NCBI RefSeq assembly: GCF_000336915.1
Contig: NZ_AOMD01000014.1
Coordinates: forward strand, 1 to 64,000
Source of the DNA: Halococcus saccharolyticus DSM 5350
GTDB lineage: Archaea; Halobacteriota; Halobacteria; Halobacteriales; Halococcaceae
DNA length: 64,000 nt
Reading direction: 5' to 3'
Part shown: in pieces, positions 53,725 to 63,831 of the stretch
Position numbering within the stretch: position 1 is the stretch's first letter
How the letters are laid out: every line of letters begins with the position of its first letter
Notes under the pieces: model-generated
What the model was told of the DNA's origin: nothing
Seen by the model: only the letters and a program-made list of their open reading frames with translations
Database searches by the model: none
Translations under genes and position numbers: made by a program

Positions 53725-54153
53725 ATGACCGTCGTCAGTGTCTCGATGCCCGAAGAACTCCTAGACCGGATCGACGAGTTCAGCGACGAACACGGTTACA
53801 CCGGCCGGAGCGAGGTTGTCCGCGACGCCGCGCGCGAACTCCTCGGCGAGTTCGAGGATGCTCGACTCGAGGACCGCGATCTCATGGCGGTCGTCACAGT
53901 CCTGTTCGACTACGAGACCACGAGCGTCGAAGAACGGATGATGGGGCTCCGTCACGAACACGAGGACCTCGTCGCGGCGAACTTCCACAGCCACGTCGGC
54001 AGCCACTACTGTATGGAGCTGTTCATCCTCGACGGCTCACTCGAAACCATCTCGGCGTTCGTCGGCAAGATCCGCGCGACCCGGGACACGCTCAGCGTGG
54101 ATTACTCGGTGATGCCGGTCGACGACTTCACCGCGGCGGCTATCGAGGACTGA
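53725..54153 (+). CDS. nikR: Nickel-responsive transcriptional regulator NikR-like
   Basis: A 142-residue regulator. The N-terminal ribbon-helix-helix ([34 protein letters not shown]) binds DNA; the C-terminal ACT-like domain carries the nickel ligands aligned with E. coli His76, His87, His89 and Cys95: here His77, His88, His90 and Cys96 ([15 protein letters not shown]). All four high-affinity ligands are conserved, so a nickel or other metal-responsive role is credible. No nickel transporter lies beside it, and its targets are not in view. Confidence 0.88.
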
Positions 54154-54447: not shown

Positions 54448-54642
54448 ATGAACTCCTGTCCCATCTGTAGCGAGGACGTTTCCGAGGAACGTCCGCGCCA
54501 CCAGGTACTCCTCGAAATCGAGGACGAGACGCGCTCGACCAGTCAGTTCATGGGCGACGAGACGGGTGTCAAGCGGGTCTGCATCGATCGGCAACTCTGC
54601 GCCGATTGCTGGCAGGACCTCCGCGGAACACTGTCGACGTAG
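54448..54642 (+). CDS. Small zinc-ribbon protein
   Basis: A 64-residue protein beginning MNSCPICSEDVSEERPRH. Two CxxC pairs (CPIC near the N-terminus and CADC near the C-terminus, plus a lone Cys before it) would bind one zinc. Haloarchaea carry many short CPxCG-type proteins like this. It is the first gene of an AT-richer island and lies upstream of the mini-peptide and CHAT genes. The 54643-55065 gap contains no supported gene beyond the mini-peptide promoter; a 19-codon ORF at 54926-54985 is too short to call. Confidence 0.7.
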   Translation: MNSCPICSEDVSEERPRHQVLLEIEDETRSTSQFMGDETGVKRVCIDRQLCADCWQDLRGTLST

Positions 54643-55065: not shown

Positions 55066-55206
55066 ATGTCCGAAGACAACACCGACGTTCGGTCGCAGCT
55101 CAAGAACCACCCGAAAGCACTCAGCGCACTGTTCGGCCTGATGATTCTGCTGTCACAGGCAGGGTCTGCGGCTGCCGGCAACATGGGCGTAATTAGTGGC
55201 CCGTAG
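55066..55206 (+). CDS. 46-residue signal-peptide-like mini-protein next to CHAT protease
   Basis: The protein opens with a polar, charged stretch (MSEDNTDVRSQLKNHPK), then one hydrophobic helix (ALSALFGLMILLSQAGSAAAG) that ends in an AxA-type site, leaving a short Gly-rich end NMGVISGP. It reads as an export signal with almost nothing to export, or a single-helix membrane peptide. Its stop codon (55204-55206) directly abuts the stop codon of the opposing CHAT gene, with no base between. I recall haloarchaeal mini-proteins of similar length ending SISGP near CHAT genes, but cannot confirm this here. Function unknown. Confidence 0.7.
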   Translation: MSEDNTDVRSQLKNHPKALSALFGLMILLSQAGSAAAGNMGVISGP

Positions 55207-57315
55207 TTACAAATCAGTTATGTCGATTTGATCACTCCAGCGTAGCTTTCCGCTGATTCTCACCGGTACTGTTTCAAGCTTGAAAAAACGCTCGAGCTCG
55301 TTCTGTGTTATGCTGAATGGGCCGATAACTCCGGAAGATAAGTAGTATCTCGATATACTGTCCATATATGGAACGACTAAGCTTCCTATCCCTCTTTGTG
55401 ATGTTGGATACGTCTCTAATTCTATATCGAACGAATTTTCTTCTGGTTTCAAATTGATTAAATTAGGCATTCCGCTCGCCGACTGCGCAATCGCTAGCCC
55501 ACCATCACCGATCACCAGGTACTCGTCTCCCATGATGCTCTCACCGCGGGCGATTTCGAGAGCGGACTGGAGCGAAAAGCCGGCGTTGAGCAGGCCCGCG
55601 AGAGTCCTTCCCATCCGGACTGCCTCGCAGTTGAGCACGTCGGTGAGTGTTGCGATCCCGCCGATGGACCCTGCCTCGATCAGCGCCATTCCCTGTCGGT
55701 AGGACTGGCAGGCGTTGAGTAAGAATGCATCCACCCCGACGGTATCGAGCGTGTTCGCGTTGAGGTCGCCGTCTGCACATTCGAATCCTCCGTCGTCGAC
55801 GTGGCCGATGTAATGGAGGAAGTCCGTCTGTGTCGAGAGCACACCTTCGAGTTCGGCTGTCGTGAGATCTCGGTGGAGCGAGACGTCGAACGGCAGTTCG
55901 TCGCGGTTGCCGTAGATGTCGTCGATCAGGTCGCGCTCCTCGGCCATGTCGGCGTCGTTGCAGACCACCGTGATGTCGATGTCGCCGTCGACGGGCGTTC
56001 TATCGAGGCGGTTCTGATAGGCCTCGACCGAGGTCTTGCTCGCGCCGAGGGGCATCCCCTCGCCGATCCACGCCTCTTCGAGCGAATCGGTCGCCTCGGG
56101 ACTCACGAACTCGACATCGGCCTCGGTTCCCGACTCTGGATTCGTACTCCGCGTGGTGCTCGCGCTCGCACTCCGCGTGAACTCGTCCTCGCGCCGGGCC
56201 GTCGCCGTTTCCACGCCGCCATCGAACATCAGTGCTTTCGAGCGCGTGACCGATCCCGTGCTCGCACACCGGACGACGGCGAGGTCGTCGACGACGAACG
56301 GGAGCGTTTCGATGCTCGCTGGCGTCGGTTCGACGTGGGAGGTGAGCTTCCACTCGGGGAGGTGGTCCTCGATGGTCGCGAACGGCACGTCGAGGTACGC
56401 GTCGAGCCGTTCGGCCAGCGGCTGATCGTAGAGTGCCGCGAAATCGAGGCCGAGGTCCGCCTCGACCGCCTCGCGCTCGTGGAGCGCCACCGGGTAGAGC
56501 CCCTCGGTACGCGCGAGACAGTCGAGGAAGAACGTCTGCTTCAACGTCCGTTCGACGGTCCGCTCGAACCCGCCTGGACCGTCGAGTGAGTATTCGAGCC
56601 CGTGATCGGCTCGGAGACGGGGCTCGTCGCCGGGGCGAACGCGCGCACCGAGATAGTACGCGAGCGGCGCGATCACGAAGATCGAACGGTACTCCGGTGG
56701 CACTTCGATCGTCACTCCCGTCTCGGGCGGTTCGAGCCCCGCGAGATCGAGCTCGTCGCCGAGTTCGATCGTGGGCGGATGCCCTCGAAGGGTGGGGTAG
56801 GAGCGCTCGGGAGAGGTCGTCTTGAGCGCGGAGCCGAACGTCGAGACCGCGGCCATCACGTCGACGGGATCGGTCGTGGTGGTAACCGTTGCGGCGGGAC
56901 GCTCGTGGTGTGAGCGCGCGCCCACTACGACCTCGGTCGCATTGCCGAAGTCGATCGTCATCCCTTCGATGTCGGCGCGCACCGAGACGGTACTCTCGAC
57001 CCGGCAGTAGAGCTTGATCGGCGCGCTCAGCTCGATCGTGTACTCACCGTGTGGCAACTCCTCGTTCGCGAAGTGCTCGGCTTGGGCCACGATCGCCCCC
57101 GACTCGTCACGGACGTGGACCGAGATCACGCTCGGCAGCGCGATACTCGTTGTCCGGATCGCAACCGCGGTCTCGACCGGGAATCGAAACCGATCGGTGT
57201 CGGCCGGTTGCGGCGCGACCGGCTCCGGCGTCGTCAGCGCGTATCGATGGCGCTCTATCGAGTCCACCACCGTGATACCCGCGCCGCCGTCAACCGGTTC
57301 GAACGATGGGTTCAT
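55207..57315 (-). CDS. CHAT-domain caspase-like protein
   Basis: A 702-residue protein. The N-terminal 400 residues are beta-rich and not assignable; an acidic/Ser/Thr linker (around residues 360-400) precedes a CHAT cysteine-protease domain. The catalytic dyad is His505 (HYIGHVDDGG) and Cys536 (FLLNACQSY), followed by the LIEAGSIGGIATL and AGLLNAGFSLQSALEIARGE helices. CHAT proteases cut specific partners in bacterial defence and gamma-proteobacterial stress systems; here both catalytic residues are intact. The last 87 residues differ in base composition from the rest. A 13-codon ORF just upstream ends in an ATGA overlap with this start. Confidence 0.88.
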   Translation of the reverse strand: MNPSFEPVDGGAGITVVDSIERHRYALTTPEPVAPQPADTDRFRFPVETAVAIRTTSIALPSVISVHVRDESGAIVAQAEHFANEELPHGEYTIELSAPIKLYCRVESTVSVRADIEGMTIDFGNATEVVVGARSHHERPAATVTTTTDPVDVMAAVSTFGSALKTTSPERSYPTLRGHPPTIELGDELDLAGLEPPETGVTIEVPPEYRSIFVIAPLAYYLGARVRPGDEPRLRADHGLEYSLDGPGGFERTVERTLKQTFFLDCLARTEGLYPVALHEREAVEADLGLDFAALYDQPLAERLDAYLDVPFATIEDHLPEWKLTSHVEPTPASIETLPFVVDDLAVVRCASTGSVTRSKALMFDGGVETATARREDEFTRSASASTTRSTNPESGTEADVEFVSPEATDSLEEAWIGEGMPLGASKTSVEAYQNRLDRTPVDGDIDITVVCNDADMAEERDLIDDIYGNRDELPFDVSLHRDLTTAELEGVLSTQTDFLHYIGHVDDGGFECADGDLNANTLDTVGVDAFLLNACQSYRQGMALIEAGSIGGIATLTDVLNCEAVRMGRTLAGLLNAGFSLQSALEIARGESIMGDEYLVIGDGGLAIAQSASGMPNLINLKPEENSFDIELETYPTSQRGIGSLVVPYMDSISRYYLSSGVIGPFSITQNELERFFKLETVPVRISGKLRWSDQIDITDL

Positions 57316-57353: not shown

Positions 57354-57545
57354 GTCTACAGTACTATCTACTCCCAACAGGGCCTAAACTAAAAACCTAT
57401 GGATGGTAGAACATCACATTGTCCGTCCCGATACTTCGTCGGCTCGGACAGGGGGCCGACGGCCGGGAACCGAACCACCGCAACGGTTGAACGGGTCGAA
57501 CGGATCGACCGCATCCGTCGTGACTGGCGTGGACGAGGAACAGTA

Positions 57546-57550
57546 CTTAG
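57546..57550 (+). promoter_or_regulatory. TATA-like box for the histidine kinase gene
   Basis: CTTAG in AGTACTTAGC, about 27 bases before ATG 57574. It supports this start against the frame-extended ATG at 57403 and shows divergent promoters between CHAT and the kinase. Confidence 0.45.
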
Positions 57551-57573
57551 CCGCTGGGGTTCCATGTCTACCC

Positions 57574-59577
57574 ATGGGCGATCCGATCCGGGTGCTCTGC
57601 GTCGACGACGACCCGGCTACCCTCGAGATCGCCGCGTCGTTTCTCGATCGGAACGGCCTCGACGTGGTGACCGAAACCAGCGCCCGCGACGCCCTCGACC
57701 GACTCGACGAAGCCATCGATTGTATCGTCAGCGACTACGAGATGCCGGCGATCGATGGTCTCGAACTCCTTGAGACGGTCCGCGACGACCACCCTGACTT
57801 GCCCTTCATCCTCTTCACCGGGAAGGGCAACGAGGCCATCGCGAGCGAGGCCATCTCCGCCGGTGTCACCGATTATCTCCGCAAGGAAACCGGCACCGAC
57901 CAGTACACGGTGCTCGCCAACCGGATCGAGAACGCGGTCGAAAAGCGTCGGGCCGAGCGCGAACTCGCCCGCACGGAGTCGCGTTACCGACGGCTGGTCG
58001 AACAGACCCTCGTCGGTATCTACATCATCCAAGACGATCGTATCCGGTACGCGAATCCGAAGCTTGCTGCCATCTTCGGCTACGATCCCGACGAACTCGT
58101 TGGTCGCTCTCCACTCACGGTCGTGGCCGAGTCCGACCGCGATCGCGTCGCCGACAGTCTCGCCGCCCGCCAAACCGGCGAAATCGACGAGGTCAACTAC
58201 ACCTTCACCGGGGTCACCAAGAGCGGTACGCCGGTCGAGATCGAGGCTCACGGAGGTTCGATCGATCTCGACGGCGATCCAGCGGTGATGGGCGTTCTCC
58301 GCGAGGTGAACGACCGCCACCGCCGGGAGTACGCACTCCGCGCACTCCACGATGCGACCGGCGATCTGATGCGAGCCCACACTCCCGAAGCCGTCGTCGA
58401 TCGGGCTGTCGCCGCCGCCGAGGACGTCCTCGGGTTCCCAGTGGCGGTGATCAGACTCCACAGCCCGGAAACCGATACGCTCGATCCGGTGGCCGTGACC
58501 GAGACAGCTATCGACGTGCTCGGTGAACGCCCGAAGTACGATCGCGACGAGGCACTTCCGTGGCGAGCGCTCGAATCGGGTGAACCCGTGATCGCGGACG
58601 GAAGTCTCGCAGGGCGCGCAACGAACGACCTCCCGCTCGAAAGCGCACTGTACGTCTCGATCGACGATCACGGCACGCTCAGCATCGGCTCGCCCGACGA
58701 CACCTTCGACGATGCCGACGTTCGACTCGCCCAAGTGCTCGCGGCGAACACCGCGGCAGCGCTCGATCGCGTCGCCAACGAGGCCGAACTCGAACGCCAG
58801 AACGAACGGCTGGAGGAGTTCGCGAGCGTCGTGAGCCACGACCTCAGAAACCCGCTCGGTCTCGCACGAGGCCGACTCGAACTCGCCCACGAGGAACATC
58901 CCTCCGAACACCACGACGACATTCAGTGGGCGCTCTCCCGGATGGATTCGCTGATCGAGGACTTGCTCGCGCTCGCACGACAGGGTGAGGTCGTCGACGA
59001 AACCACGACCGTCTCGCTCGCCACGATCGCCGAGGCCGCGTGGATGGAGATCGACGACGAAACCGCGTCGTTCGTCCACGACGACCTCGGTGAGATCGAG
59101 GCCGATCCCGACCGCCTCCAGCGACTGTTCGGCAACCTGTTCCGAAATGCCGTAGAGCACGGCTCCACAAGCCCTCGCTCGCACGATCGCGAGGACGCTG
59201 TGGAACACGGTTCGACAAGCCCTCGTTCGAGAACTCACGAGGACACCGTGGAGCACAGCTCCACGAGTAGCCGGTCGGAGGCCGGCGACGCCATCGAGCA
59301 CGGTTCGATGAGCAGGCAGGCGTCGCCCGACGACGGCTCATCGGTGACCGTCCGAGTAGAGCGTCTCCCCGACGGCGGTTTCGCGGTTGCGGACGACGGG
59401 CCAGGCATCCCCGACGACGAGAGCGACCGCGTCTTCGAGAGTGGGTACTCGACCGGCGAGGGGACGGGATTGGGGCTCGCTATTGTCAGGACCATCGCCG
59501 AAGCCCACGGCTGGCAGGTCTTGATCACTAAGAGCGATACCGGCGGTGCACGGATCGAGGTCCACACTCGCGGCTAA
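57574..59577 (+). CDS. Multidomain sensor histidine kinase (REC-PAS-GAF-HisKA-HATPase)
   Basis: A 667-residue cytoplasmic kinase without transmembrane segments. Domains in order: receiver with phosphoacceptor Asp54 (VSDYEMP); PAS at about 133-250; GAF-like at about 262-405; HisKA with His422 (SHDLRNP); HATPase with N-box NLFRNAVEHG (521-530), DDGPGIP (607-613) and GEGTGLGLA (628-636). Between N-box and the next strand lies a tandem repeat of the unit DAVEHGSTSPRS (residues 526-583). The architecture is of the haloarchaeal bacterio-opsin-activator/HTR-like soluble kinases; the signal and partner are unknown. Divergent from the CHAT gene. Confidence 0.9.
   Translation: MGDPIRVLCVDDDPATLEIAASFLDRNGLDVVTETSARDALDRLDEAIDCIVSDYEMPAIDGLELLETVRDDHPDLPFILFTGKGNEAIASEAISAGVTDYLRKETGTDQYTVLANRIENAVEKRRAERELARTESRYRRLVEQTLVGIYIIQDDRIRYANPKLAAIFGYDPDELVGRSPLTVVAESDRDRVADSLAARQTGEIDEVNYTFTGVTKSGTPVEIEAHGGSIDLDGDPAVMGVLREVNDRHRREYALRALHDATGDLMRAHTPEAVVDRAVAAAEDVLGFPVAVIRLHSPETDTLDPVAVTETAIDVLGERPKYDRDEALPWRALESGEPVIADGSLAGRATNDLPLESALYVSIDDHGTLSIGSPDDTFDDADVRLAQVLAANTAAALDRVANEAELERQNERLEEFASVVSHDLRNPLGLARGRLELAHEEHPSEHHDDIQWALSRMDSLIEDLLALARQGEVVDETTTVSLATIAEAAWMEIDDETASFVHDDLGEIEADPDRLQRLFGNLFRNAVEHGSTSPRSHDREDAVEHGSTSPRSRTHEDTVEHSSTSSRSEAGDAIEHGSMSRQASPDDGSSVTVRVERLPDGGFAVADDGPGIPDDESDRVFESGYSTGEGTGLGLAIVRTIAEAHGWQVLITKSDTGGARIEVHTRG
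59149..59322 (+). repeat. 48-base coding tandem repeat in the histidine kinase
   Basis: Units: 59149-59196 and 59197-59244 (48 bases each), 59245-59289 (45 bases), and a partial fourth at 59290-59322. Each encodes a version of AVEHGSTSPRS plus five or four variable residues. The units copy the end of the N-box helix. Their codons have diverged (for example GTA GAG CAC GGC against GTG GAA CAC GGT), so the duplications are not recent. Confidence 0.85.
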
Positions 59578-61753: not shown

Positions 61754-62947
61754 GTGAACACCGATCGTGTGGTGCTGGCGACGATGATCTTCGCGGTGCT
61801 GTTCGGGCAGGTGGCGCTCTACCCCGGCGTCCCGGAGCTCGTGGCGGCGCTCGGCGCGACCACGACGCTCGACGCAGGCACGTGGTTCCTCGCGGCCGAG
61901 TACGCCGGCTTCGTGCTCTTCGCTGGCGTCTGGGGCGCGCTGAGTGACGCCACCGGCCGGCGAGTGCCCTTGATCGTCGCTGGCGCGCTCGGCGGCGTGG
62001 CGAGCTACGCGGCGTTGATCGGTCTCGCCGAGGTCGCAGGGATCGGGTTCGGCGCGATGCTCGTCCTCCGCTTCATCGAGGGGAGTTTCACCATCGCGGC
62101 GTTCTCGCTCTCGATCACGATGCTGATGGATCTGGAGGGAGGCCACGGCCGGAACATGGGGGCGGCGGGCATCGCCATCGGCTCCGGGACGGCGCTCGGC
62201 GCACCCCTCGGCGGCCAGCTCTCGTCGATCGGTCCGCTCATGCCGATCGCTGTTGCTGCCGGTCTCCTCTGTGTCGTCGCGCTGTTGGCGACTCAAGTGA
62301 CCGACCGAGTTCCCGAGAGCCAGCGTGGTGGTATCGGGGCCGCGATCGCTGGCCTCACCGAACGGCCCGCACTCGGCCTCCCCTACGCCTTCGGCTTCGC
62401 CGACCGGTTCACGGCGGGCTTTTTCGCACTCGTCGGCACGCTCTACTTCCGGCAGACCTTCGATCTCGACGCGGGCGCGGCGGGCATCGTGCTCGGCCTG
62501 TTCTTCGCGCCGTTCGCGCTCGGCCAGTACCCGATGGGGCGGCTCTCGGACCGCATCGGTCGACTCCTTCCGGTCGTCGCGGGATCGGTGCTCTACGGGG
62601 GTGCCATCCTCGCGGTCTATCTCGCGCCCACGATCGAGATCGCGAGCGCGACGATGGTCCTGCTCGGGATCGCCGGCGCGCTCGTCGCTCCGGCCACGAT
62701 GGCGCTCGTCACGGACCTCGCTCCCGACGATCGGGGCACCGCGATGGGTGGGTTCAACGTCTTCGGGAGTCTCGGCTTCCTCGTGGGAACCGTCGGCGGC
62801 GGCGTGATCGCTGACAACGTTGGCTTCGGCGCTGCCTTTCTCGCTGCCGCCGCGCTCGAAGCTGGGATCGTCCTCGTCACACTCCCGCTACTCGTCCGAC
62901 TCGACATCCCCCGAGCGACGCTGTTCGGCGATCGGGAATCGACCTGA
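61754..62947 (+). CDS. MFS transporter
   Basis: A 397-residue major facilitator protein with twelve expected helices. Motif A in the loop after helix 2 is GALSDATGRRVPL and its second-half copy is GRLSDRIGRLLPV. It starts with GTG (MNTDRVVLATMIFAV), set by the TATA-like box 27 bases upstream. It is of the drug/metabolite efflux type, distant from the first MFS protein in this window. Substrate unknown. It has no partner gene. Confidence 0.88.
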   Translation: MNTDRVVLATMIFAVLFGQVALYPGVPELVAALGATTTLDAGTWFLAAEYAGFVLFAGVWGALSDATGRRVPLIVAGALGGVASYAALIGLAEVAGIGFGAMLVLRFIEGSFTIAAFSLSITMLMDLEGGHGRNMGAAGIAIGSGTALGAPLGGQLSSIGPLMPIAVAAGLLCVVALLATQVTDRVPESQRGGIGAAIAGLTERPALGLPYAFGFADRFTAGFFALVGTLYFRQTFDLDAGAAGIVLGLFFAPFALGQYPMGRLSDRIGRLLPVVAGSVLYGGAILAVYLAPTIEIASATMVLLGIAGALVAPATMALVTDLAPDDRGTAMGGFNVFGSLGFLVGTVGGGVIADNVGFGAAFLAAAALEAGIVLVTLPLLVRLDIPRATLFGDREST

Positions 62948-63380
62948 CGACACGCTCGTCCGTCGGCAGCTGTCTCGACACCTCGTCACGACCTCATAGT
63001 ACCAGTCGCTTCCGTTCTCCAGGGTAGCGTGTGCCTCTCCAAATCGCACCACCCAGTAATGGCGCTATTGCAGCACAGACACCTACTCGAACTACCGATC
63101 TCGAATTCGCCGACGAATCACTGGCCAGTCAGTTATCAGCGCTGTGCCGGATGACCGATTTGAGTACAGCATGGTTGAGTCACGAACGACATCAAACGTT
63201 CACGGGATGGATTCACCTTGGAGACAGACGAAATCATCCTCTCGATTGCCGTCAAATTCTGGAGGATTCGGTGAAACCTCGAAAATGATGTTGGAACCTA
63301 TTCGAATCGAAAATGTCTCTCCTTCTAACCCTGTTCGGGAATGAAGGCATTATATTATCTGCCGCCGCAAGAAGGTGGCA
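62948..63380. other. AT-richer gap without a supported gene
   Basis: Base composition falls towards the end of the window. Open frames here (for example at 63031-63288) do not show haloarchaeal codon bias or acidic composition. They could be decayed remnants. Confidence 0.4.
63351..63358 (+). promoter_or_regulatory. TATA-like box for the PadR-like regulator
   Basis: TATATTAT, 23-30 bases before ATG 63381. It supports this start over the in-frame ATG-like codon at 63375. Confidence 0.55.
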
Positions 63381-63659
63381 ATGGAAGACCTCAATGCGTT
63401 TCAACGAGATCTGTTGTATGTCAATGAGAGCGTAGGAGAAGCATCGGGCTTAGAAATCAAGGATGTTCTCGATAGCCACTATGATGAGGAGATTGATACA
63501 AGTCGTCTCTATCCGAATCTCGATGAACTGGTTGATCGAGGATTGATCGACAAAGGAAGTATAGATGGTCGGACAAATTCGTACACTCTTTCCGAAGAAG
63601 GTCACCAAGCGCTCGCCGCACGACGAGAGTGGGAAGAAAGTTTAAAACCAACTGATTAG
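63381..63659 (+). CDS. PadR-like winged-helix regulator
   Basis: A 92-residue winged-helix protein (MEDLNAFQRDLLYV). The recognition-helix region EIDTSRLYPNLDELVDRGLI and the wing (IDGRTNSYTLSEEGHQAL) match haloarchaeal PadR/phiH1-repressor-like proteins. The gene is notably AT-rich in codon use (AAA, AAT, TTA, GAT common), unlike most of the window, a sign of transfer or viral/plasmid origin. It is preceded by a clear AT-rich promoter and has no obvious target gene. Confidence 0.75.
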   Translation: MEDLNAFQRDLLYVNESVGEASGLEIKDVLDSHYDEEIDTSRLYPNLDELVDRGLIDKGSIDGRTNSYTLSEEGHQALAARREWEESLKPTD

Positions 63660-63831
63660 GCTGCGCTTCAAGGTGCTGTTTTGGAATAAAAGAAAAATAC
63701 CGGGACTGAATGCTACTTATGTTTCCTTCTCTGATGCAATACGGGGTGTGGAGGTATATAAGTAAATGCTTCGGATGCAACGGTGGTTCCCTCCAAGCGG
63801 ATTCGATTAGCCGTCGAGTGAGACGGAGTTC

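Follow-up and report, generated by a model that had tools for sequence, protein, structure and literature searches.

The window, i.e., the whole 64,000-nucleotide stretch of Halococcus saccharolyticus DNA that was analysed, carries a small peptide gene and a protease gene that converge and meet at their stop codons. The features of the pair are listed below, each with the evidence for it.

55066..55206, forward strand: peptide gene of family DUF7503 (PF24335; E 9.3e-18), 46 aa, including the stop codon at 55204-55206
55108..55116, forward strand: His-Pro-Lys motif, upstream of the hydrophobic segment; [HN]P[KR] occurs in 161/163 peptides
55120..55176, forward strand: hydrophobic, signal-peptide-like segment, ending at a small-x-small site (AAA, followed by G); Kyte-Doolittle 19-residue maximum 1.6
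55177..55203, forward strand: hypervariable tail GNMGVISGP with its Gly-Pro end, found in 161/163 peptides; in Halorubrum, saturation of synonymous sites sets in at this residue
55177..55482, no strand assigned: putative specificity cassette, comprising peptide tail, both stops and protease C-terminal domain; GC 0.43
55207..57315, reverse strand: CHAT (caspase/separase clan) protease gene, 702 aa, assigned by relatives and fold
55210..55482, reverse strand: variable C-terminal domain of the protease, residues 612-702; predicted to fold alone, with a drop in GC3
55708..55710, reverse strand: codon of catalytic Cys536, invariant
55801..55803, reverse strand: codon of catalytic His505, invariant
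56122..56244, reverse strand: disordered linker (pLDDT <50), residues 358-398, between the N-terminal region and the catalytic domain

The stop codon of the protease begins at the base directly after that of the peptide, leaving an intergenic gap of 0. These coordinates bear out the first-pass annotation, which had described a 46-residue peptide and a protease converging with zero bases between their stops. An exact zero gap is frequent, not universal: across 163 unique pairs, gaps ran from -23 to +206, with -4 (39 pairs) and 0 (35 pairs) occurring most often. Gene clustering of the named loci gave no further neighbour that is widely conserved outside Halorubrum. A larger conserved operon was considered and rejected; the second widest neighbour cluster sits opposite the protease and was read as an antisense shadow. 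In the window, the AT-rich stretch before the pair encodes a 64-aa CxxC zinc-ribbon-like small protein (54448-54642, forward strand; Pfam matches sub-threshold), and a NikR-like nickel-responsive regulator with ribbon-helix-helix and NikR_C parts lies at 53725-54153 (forward strand). On the other side, a response-regulator/PAS/GAF/histidine kinase protein (57403-59577, forward strand) starts 88 bases from the protease start and diverges from it; this kinase gene was not found as a conserved neighbour of the protease in other loci. Farther on, a transporter-like ORF ends at 62947, before a second low-GC stretch (63200-63700, GC 0.44) with a PadR-type regulator ORF (63375-63656).

By sequence, the window protease matches no Pfam family. 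The CHAT family PF12770 was matched by three of 26 relatives (best E 2.1e-5), the window protease itself having no match at E<=1, and no TPR family was matched by the protease or its 26-sequence alignment. An AlphaFold model (mean pLDDT 85) has a clan-CD fold, and its top structural matches are separase, SAVED-CHAT, Craspase TPR-CHAT, DdvA and gingipain (Z about 14-16), those to separase and SAVED-CHAT (Z 15) spanning the catalytic region. The His505/Cys536 dyad, described as intact in the first-pass annotation, is invariant in the 26-sequence alignment and kept in 160 of 160 relatives. According to the model, the protease thus has a caspase/separase-type fold with a complete catalytic dyad, and peptidase activity is predicted. 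The C-terminal domain folds in isolation in the predicted structure (pLDDT 85.8); compared with PDB structures, its best Z was 4.6, giving no clear match. Named genomes yielded 51 relatives of the protease. In three loci (L039, L042 and L049), the protease ORF is split into two frames, which may reflect real pseudogenes or sequencing errors.

The peptide matches the PF24335 profile with 64 bits against a curated cut-off of 27. To our knowledge, this family has no assigned function. A small-x-small site lies 8-9 residues from the C-terminus in all 163 peptides, 108 of them with strict AxA, which is weak evidence in so Ala-rich a region. The peptide body of Halorubrum is under strong purifying selection (pN 0.03 versus pS 0.21). 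In the same body, the synonymous sites of codons -35 to -23 are almost invariant across species (pS near 0, versus 0.35 for the protease backbone); either this flank has been homogenised by recombination, or it is constrained at the nucleotide level.

The distribution of the two genes was surveyed in 391 Halobacteria genomes, one per species. The first-pass annotation had proposed a co-occurrence count as a check and would have been refuted by a lack of co-occurrence or by peptides equally frequent without a CHAT gene; neither outcome materialised. The count placed DUF7503 in 337 genomes and the protease in 365. Among the 26 protease-less genomes, the peptide is also absent from 25, the remaining one having an E=0.009 match only, and the genomes with a protease and no DUF7503 match mostly hold divergent proteases only. 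The control genome of Haloferax volcanii gave a DUF7503 match above the cut-off. When the positions of both matches were compared, all 42 pairs taken from the listed best matches were convergent, with 9-177 nt between the matched sequences; in ten genomes picked for many or odd copies, coordinates placed 38 of 40 peptides next to a protease. A partner was counted if it was a convergent short ORF, either DUF7503-like or with a Gly-Pro end, within -30 to +210 nt of the protease. By this count, 203 of 211 distinct protease relatives have a partner, versus 13 of 898 control ORFs: 187 partners are DUF7503-like, 16 are other convergent ORFs ending in Gly-Pro, and the eight proteases with none are mostly remote paralogues. 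The persistent features are therefore the tail-to-tail arrangement and the terminal Gly-Pro, and the peptide body is replaceable. The supposition that the two genes are dedicated to each other and that such pairs may recur in haloarchaea thus holds class-wide, a peptide without a protease being nearly absent, and the two almost certainly form a real functional pair.

One low-GC block of ~300 bp spans both stops and encodes the final ~9 residues of the peptide together with the final ~90 of the protease. Among all 300-bp segments of the 64 kb, none has a lower GC than that at 55201 (mean 0.658, sd 0.047). Within the protease, GC3 falls from 0.82 in residues 1-608 to 0.44 in the C-terminal domain; across 91 neighbouring ORFs used as a control, the corresponding shift averaged -0.025 (sd 0.105), and the five lowest values (about -0.34 to -0.47) belong, as far as inspected, to antisense shadow ORFs over other genes. 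The same block is hypervariable between relatives. Across 40 Halorubrum loci, the N-terminal and catalytic part of the protease shows pS 0.35, pN 0.10 and GC3 0.93, and the C-terminal domain pS 0.79, pN 0.39 and GC3 0.51; the peptide body shows pS 0.21 and GC3 0.92, and the tail pS 0.77, pN 0.46 and GC3 0.51. Halorubrum proteases that are ~95% identical in the backbone can have C-terminal domains down to ~36-40% identical. The counterpart block was hypervariable in all ten groups tested, the nine beyond Halorubrum going in the same direction; peptides were aligned from the C-terminus, which inflates the body figures in groups with tails of unequal length.

The borders of the block are informative about its origin. 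In the protease, the border is sharp: synonymous divergence rises between GDGGTT and ICQSRSG, ahead of the amino-acid variation. In the Halorubrum peptide, it rises between Ala(-10) and Asn(-9), which is the predicted signal-peptidase site. Since synonymous divergence precedes amino-acid divergence, the pattern points to recombination with divergent DNA, not to faster protein evolution, as the way in which this variation entered the block. Synonymous sites are saturated within the block and not outside, and for this reason no dN/dS claim of positive selection is made. The same pattern speaks, if tentatively, against targeting by a diversity-generating retroelement, which would change amino acids at adenines: here, synonymous sites are saturated where amino acids stay constant.

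Tail and C-terminal domain vary together. In four genera, partial Mantel tests of tail against domain, given the backbone, gave 0.25 for Halorubrum, 0.51 for g11, 0.39 for g7/g20 and 0.36 for g24 (all p<=0.005); such tests can be liberal, and linkage contributes to the signal. Of five variable tail residues, 3.17 are shared with the nearest neighbour by C-terminal domain, 2.55 with the nearest by backbone and 1.68 between random pairs. The association is strong when relatives are close or moderately distant and drops to a partial r of 0.09-0.13 across distant genera. On this evidence, tail and domain are probably cognate partners. The contrary reading, in which the two 3' ends are simply a recombination hot spot and their co-variation is linkage, appears very improbable. 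Adjacency alone would predict co-inheritance, and the weakening between distant genera also suits it; however, a hot spot does not account for a convergent layout and Gly-Pro end that survive where the peptide body is unrelated, for the retention of a Gly-Pro-ending short ORF in about 96% of cases, or for tandem amplification of the tail alone.

That amplification was found in six species of genus g43, whose proteases score >950 bits and whose genomes have no DUF7503 match. Their partner ORF, at an overlap of -4, follows the pattern MSxxDSGTVA...AD-(GNxGGISGP-[YFMS][TN]AD)n-GNxGGISGP, with a 13-aa unit in 4-13 tandem copies (L104-L109; array confirmed in L104) and no hydrophobic segment. The linkers between these repeats look like caspase-type XXXD sites. 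Two sister genomes carry single tails, GNSGAISGP (L103) and SNGAATSGP (L102). Halococcus paralogues have a 41-aa partner with a GTG start, an SGP end and no classical helix, and the partner ORFs of L241 and L242 also lack a classical hydrophobic segment and keep the Gly-Pro end. Altogether, seven loci (these two and L052, L230, L232, L235 and L236) have a convergent partner with an unrelated body and a Gly-Pro end that PF24335 misses. A class of genomes with a CHAT protease and no peptide was considered for g43, g74 and Halococcus and discarded, diverged Gly-Pro-ending partners being present. The first-pass annotation had seen the pair itself correctly; what had escaped it is that the two genes share a hypervariable cassette, that the Gly-Pro end is invariant and that versions with tandem repeats exist. 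Its suggestion that the peptide might be a membrane effector released by cleavage is disfavoured, as the hydrophobic part is absent from some partners (six g43 species, Halococcus paralogues, L241/L242) while the Gly-Pro tail stays.

Precursors of the Phr/AimP type consist of a leader-like body and a variable C-terminal ligand, encoded beside the receptor gene, and the peptides described here have 43-46 aa. By analogy with them, the two genes are best read as a matched ligand-receptor pair, with an exported tail and a cytosolic caspase-clan protease as its receptor, a reading given roughly even odds (about 0.5). The ligand would consist of the peptide's final 8-9 residues, with the Gly-Pro end in nearly all cases, and the conserved body would be an export leader. 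Signal peptidase would cut after AAA, exactly where the variable part starts, and so free a nonapeptide. After uptake, this nonapeptide would be bound through the variable C-terminal domain in cells with a matching protease, in which proteolysis would be switched in the manner of Phr, PapR and AimP with their receptors; a role in sensing kin or density is conceivable. That the tail is an exported signal and activates the protease falls just short of an even chance. With lock and key placed back to back over two stop codons, a single short recombination event could replace both together, and new matched types ("pherotypes") could therefore spread between species; this exchange logic holds whether the tail activates or inhibits. 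In its fullest form, put forward more tentatively still, the proposal is an archaeal peptide pheromone with recombining pherotypes, i.e., a Gly-Pro nonapeptide read by a caspase-clan protease, with both specificities in one cassette split over two convergent 3' ends.

A peptide signal would be consistent with the size of the precursor, its leader-like body and the ligand at its end, as well as with the adjacent cytosolic receptor, the matched diversification and the repeated ligand. Against this reading, Sec export is, judging from the sequences, not general, because g43, the Halococcus paralogues and L241/L242 lack a classical hydrophobic segment. These leaderless versions are its main difficulty and may leave room for a cytosolic inhibitor. 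In addition, linkage between the neighbouring tail and domain could by itself be enough to make them co-vary, and some genomes hold up to about a dozen paralogues, which suggests a repertoire rather than a single quorum system.

The inhibitor reading is of a guard or toxin-antitoxin type and is considered doubtful. The tail would act as a pseudosubstrate that holds its own protease off, as securin does with separase, and upon meeting a non-matching partner, the protease would damage or kill the cell. The mismatch could come from another strain after cell fusion or from a virus that removes or mimics the tail, and diversity would arise from evasion or allorecognition. Mating of halophilic archaea does proceed through cell fusion, and partners of the same species are preferred (PMC5496957). 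Separase, among the closest folds, is restrained by a partner protein; a cytosolic inhibitor would suit the versions that lack an export segment, tandem tails could be a stronger one, and the protease seldom occurs without a Gly-Pro-ending partner. Yet the leader-like segment of most peptides would remove the tail from the cytosol, orphan antitoxin-like peptides are nearly absent, and neither peptide nor protease matched a PADLOC defence model at E<=1. Viral relatives were not found either: a search of 50,697 phage records and of IMG/VR contigs yielded none for the protease, and the peptide matched none of the phage records, 9-residue mimics being beyond the reach of such a search. A viral source or mimic was rejected on these results. 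A role of the pair in defence is conceivable.

An unlikely alternative, raised in the first-pass annotation, is that the peptide is a dedicated substrate. In that case, the tail would dock at the C-terminal domain as an exosite, and an active piece would be freed by a cut following [HN]P[KR] or, in g43, following the Asp of the [YFM][TN]AD-G linkers. Craspase/Csx30 shows that a CHAT protease can have a dedicated partner substrate, the [HN]P[KR] motif is nearly universal, and AD-G linkers separate the g43 repeats. However, the K/R site is absent from some g43 versions (L105), no one cleavage motif is common to all versions, and it is the terminal Gly-Pro, rather than a cleavage site, that is kept most constantly; with the hydrophobic part dispensable, a membrane-effector product would also be unlikely.

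For the preferred ligand-receptor reading, the RRNPP systems (Rap-Phr, PlcR-PapR, NprR-NprX and AimR-AimP) offer the closest anatomical parallel. They share a precursor of 40-50 aa whose leader-like body is conserved and whose C-terminal ligand is short and variable, a precursor gene adjoining that of a cytosolic receptor, matched diversification, horizontal exchange and intragenic tandem copies of the ligand (PMC5199041). Such copies of the mature ligand are known for Phr, NprX and fungal mating pheromones (PMC5199041). The haloarchaeal pair matches in precursor anatomy and in adjacency to a putative receptor gene, the tail being a candidate ligand. In contrast to RRNPP systems, the receptor here would be a CHAT protease instead of a TPR protein, its variable part is the C-terminal domain that adjoins the ligand codons, the genes converge and the system is archaeal. 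Because no TPR family was matched, the pair is not an RRNPP member, although it may work like one.

Other systems resemble parts of this arrangement. In the ComQXPA pherotype locus of Bacillus, one polymorphic block, set in a conserved background, takes in the ligand gene and the neighbouring end of the receptor gene (PMC6334282); however, ComX undergoes modification and its reader is a membrane histidine kinase, and the block spans head-to-tail genes instead of convergent 3' ends. Craspase (Csx29-Csx30), SAVED-CHAT and separase-securin share the protease fold, the His/Cys dyad and a dedicated protein partner, whereas here no CRISPR, SAVED or TPR part was detected, a 46-aa peptide whose tail is allelic takes the partner's place, and nothing in the PDB clearly matches the C-terminal domain. 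Polymorphic toxin-immunity modules and VARTIG of the Thermococcales also have a hypervariable C-terminal region that recombines between species, VARTIG being an archaeal protein (PMC8416519). Unlike these, the present pair has no secreted giant protein, Ig or toxin domain, and consists of two short convergent ends with no long operon. The nearest precedents are thus VARTIG, for an archaeal variable C-terminus, and ComQXPA, for a polymorphic ligand-receptor block. No system known to us stores the specificities of a protease and its partner peptide together in a single cassette that straddles two convergent stop codons. The pair with its shared cassette looks like an unreported self-recognition or signalling system. 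In the literature searched, which lay outside subscription journals and preprints, no prior description of the pair, the Gly-Pro tail or the cassette was found, nor any mention of DUF7503.

Nearly every haloarchaeon has the pair, yet neither gene has been assigned a function. Should tail and domain prove to be lock and key, they would represent archaeal peptide recognition with interchangeable types, bearing on self and non-self in mating or signalling, and the allelic cassettes permit direct swap experiments. Strong caspase-like activity has been measured in Haloferax volcanii, whose lineage is reported to be without clear homologues of caspases (PMC3615174), and the protease is a candidate gene for this activity. 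Five genomes (G122, G263, G273, G325 and G383) carry divergent protease paralogues, up to about a dozen per genome and many with their own peptide, and paralogues also reside on haloarchaeal plasmids and megaplasmids.
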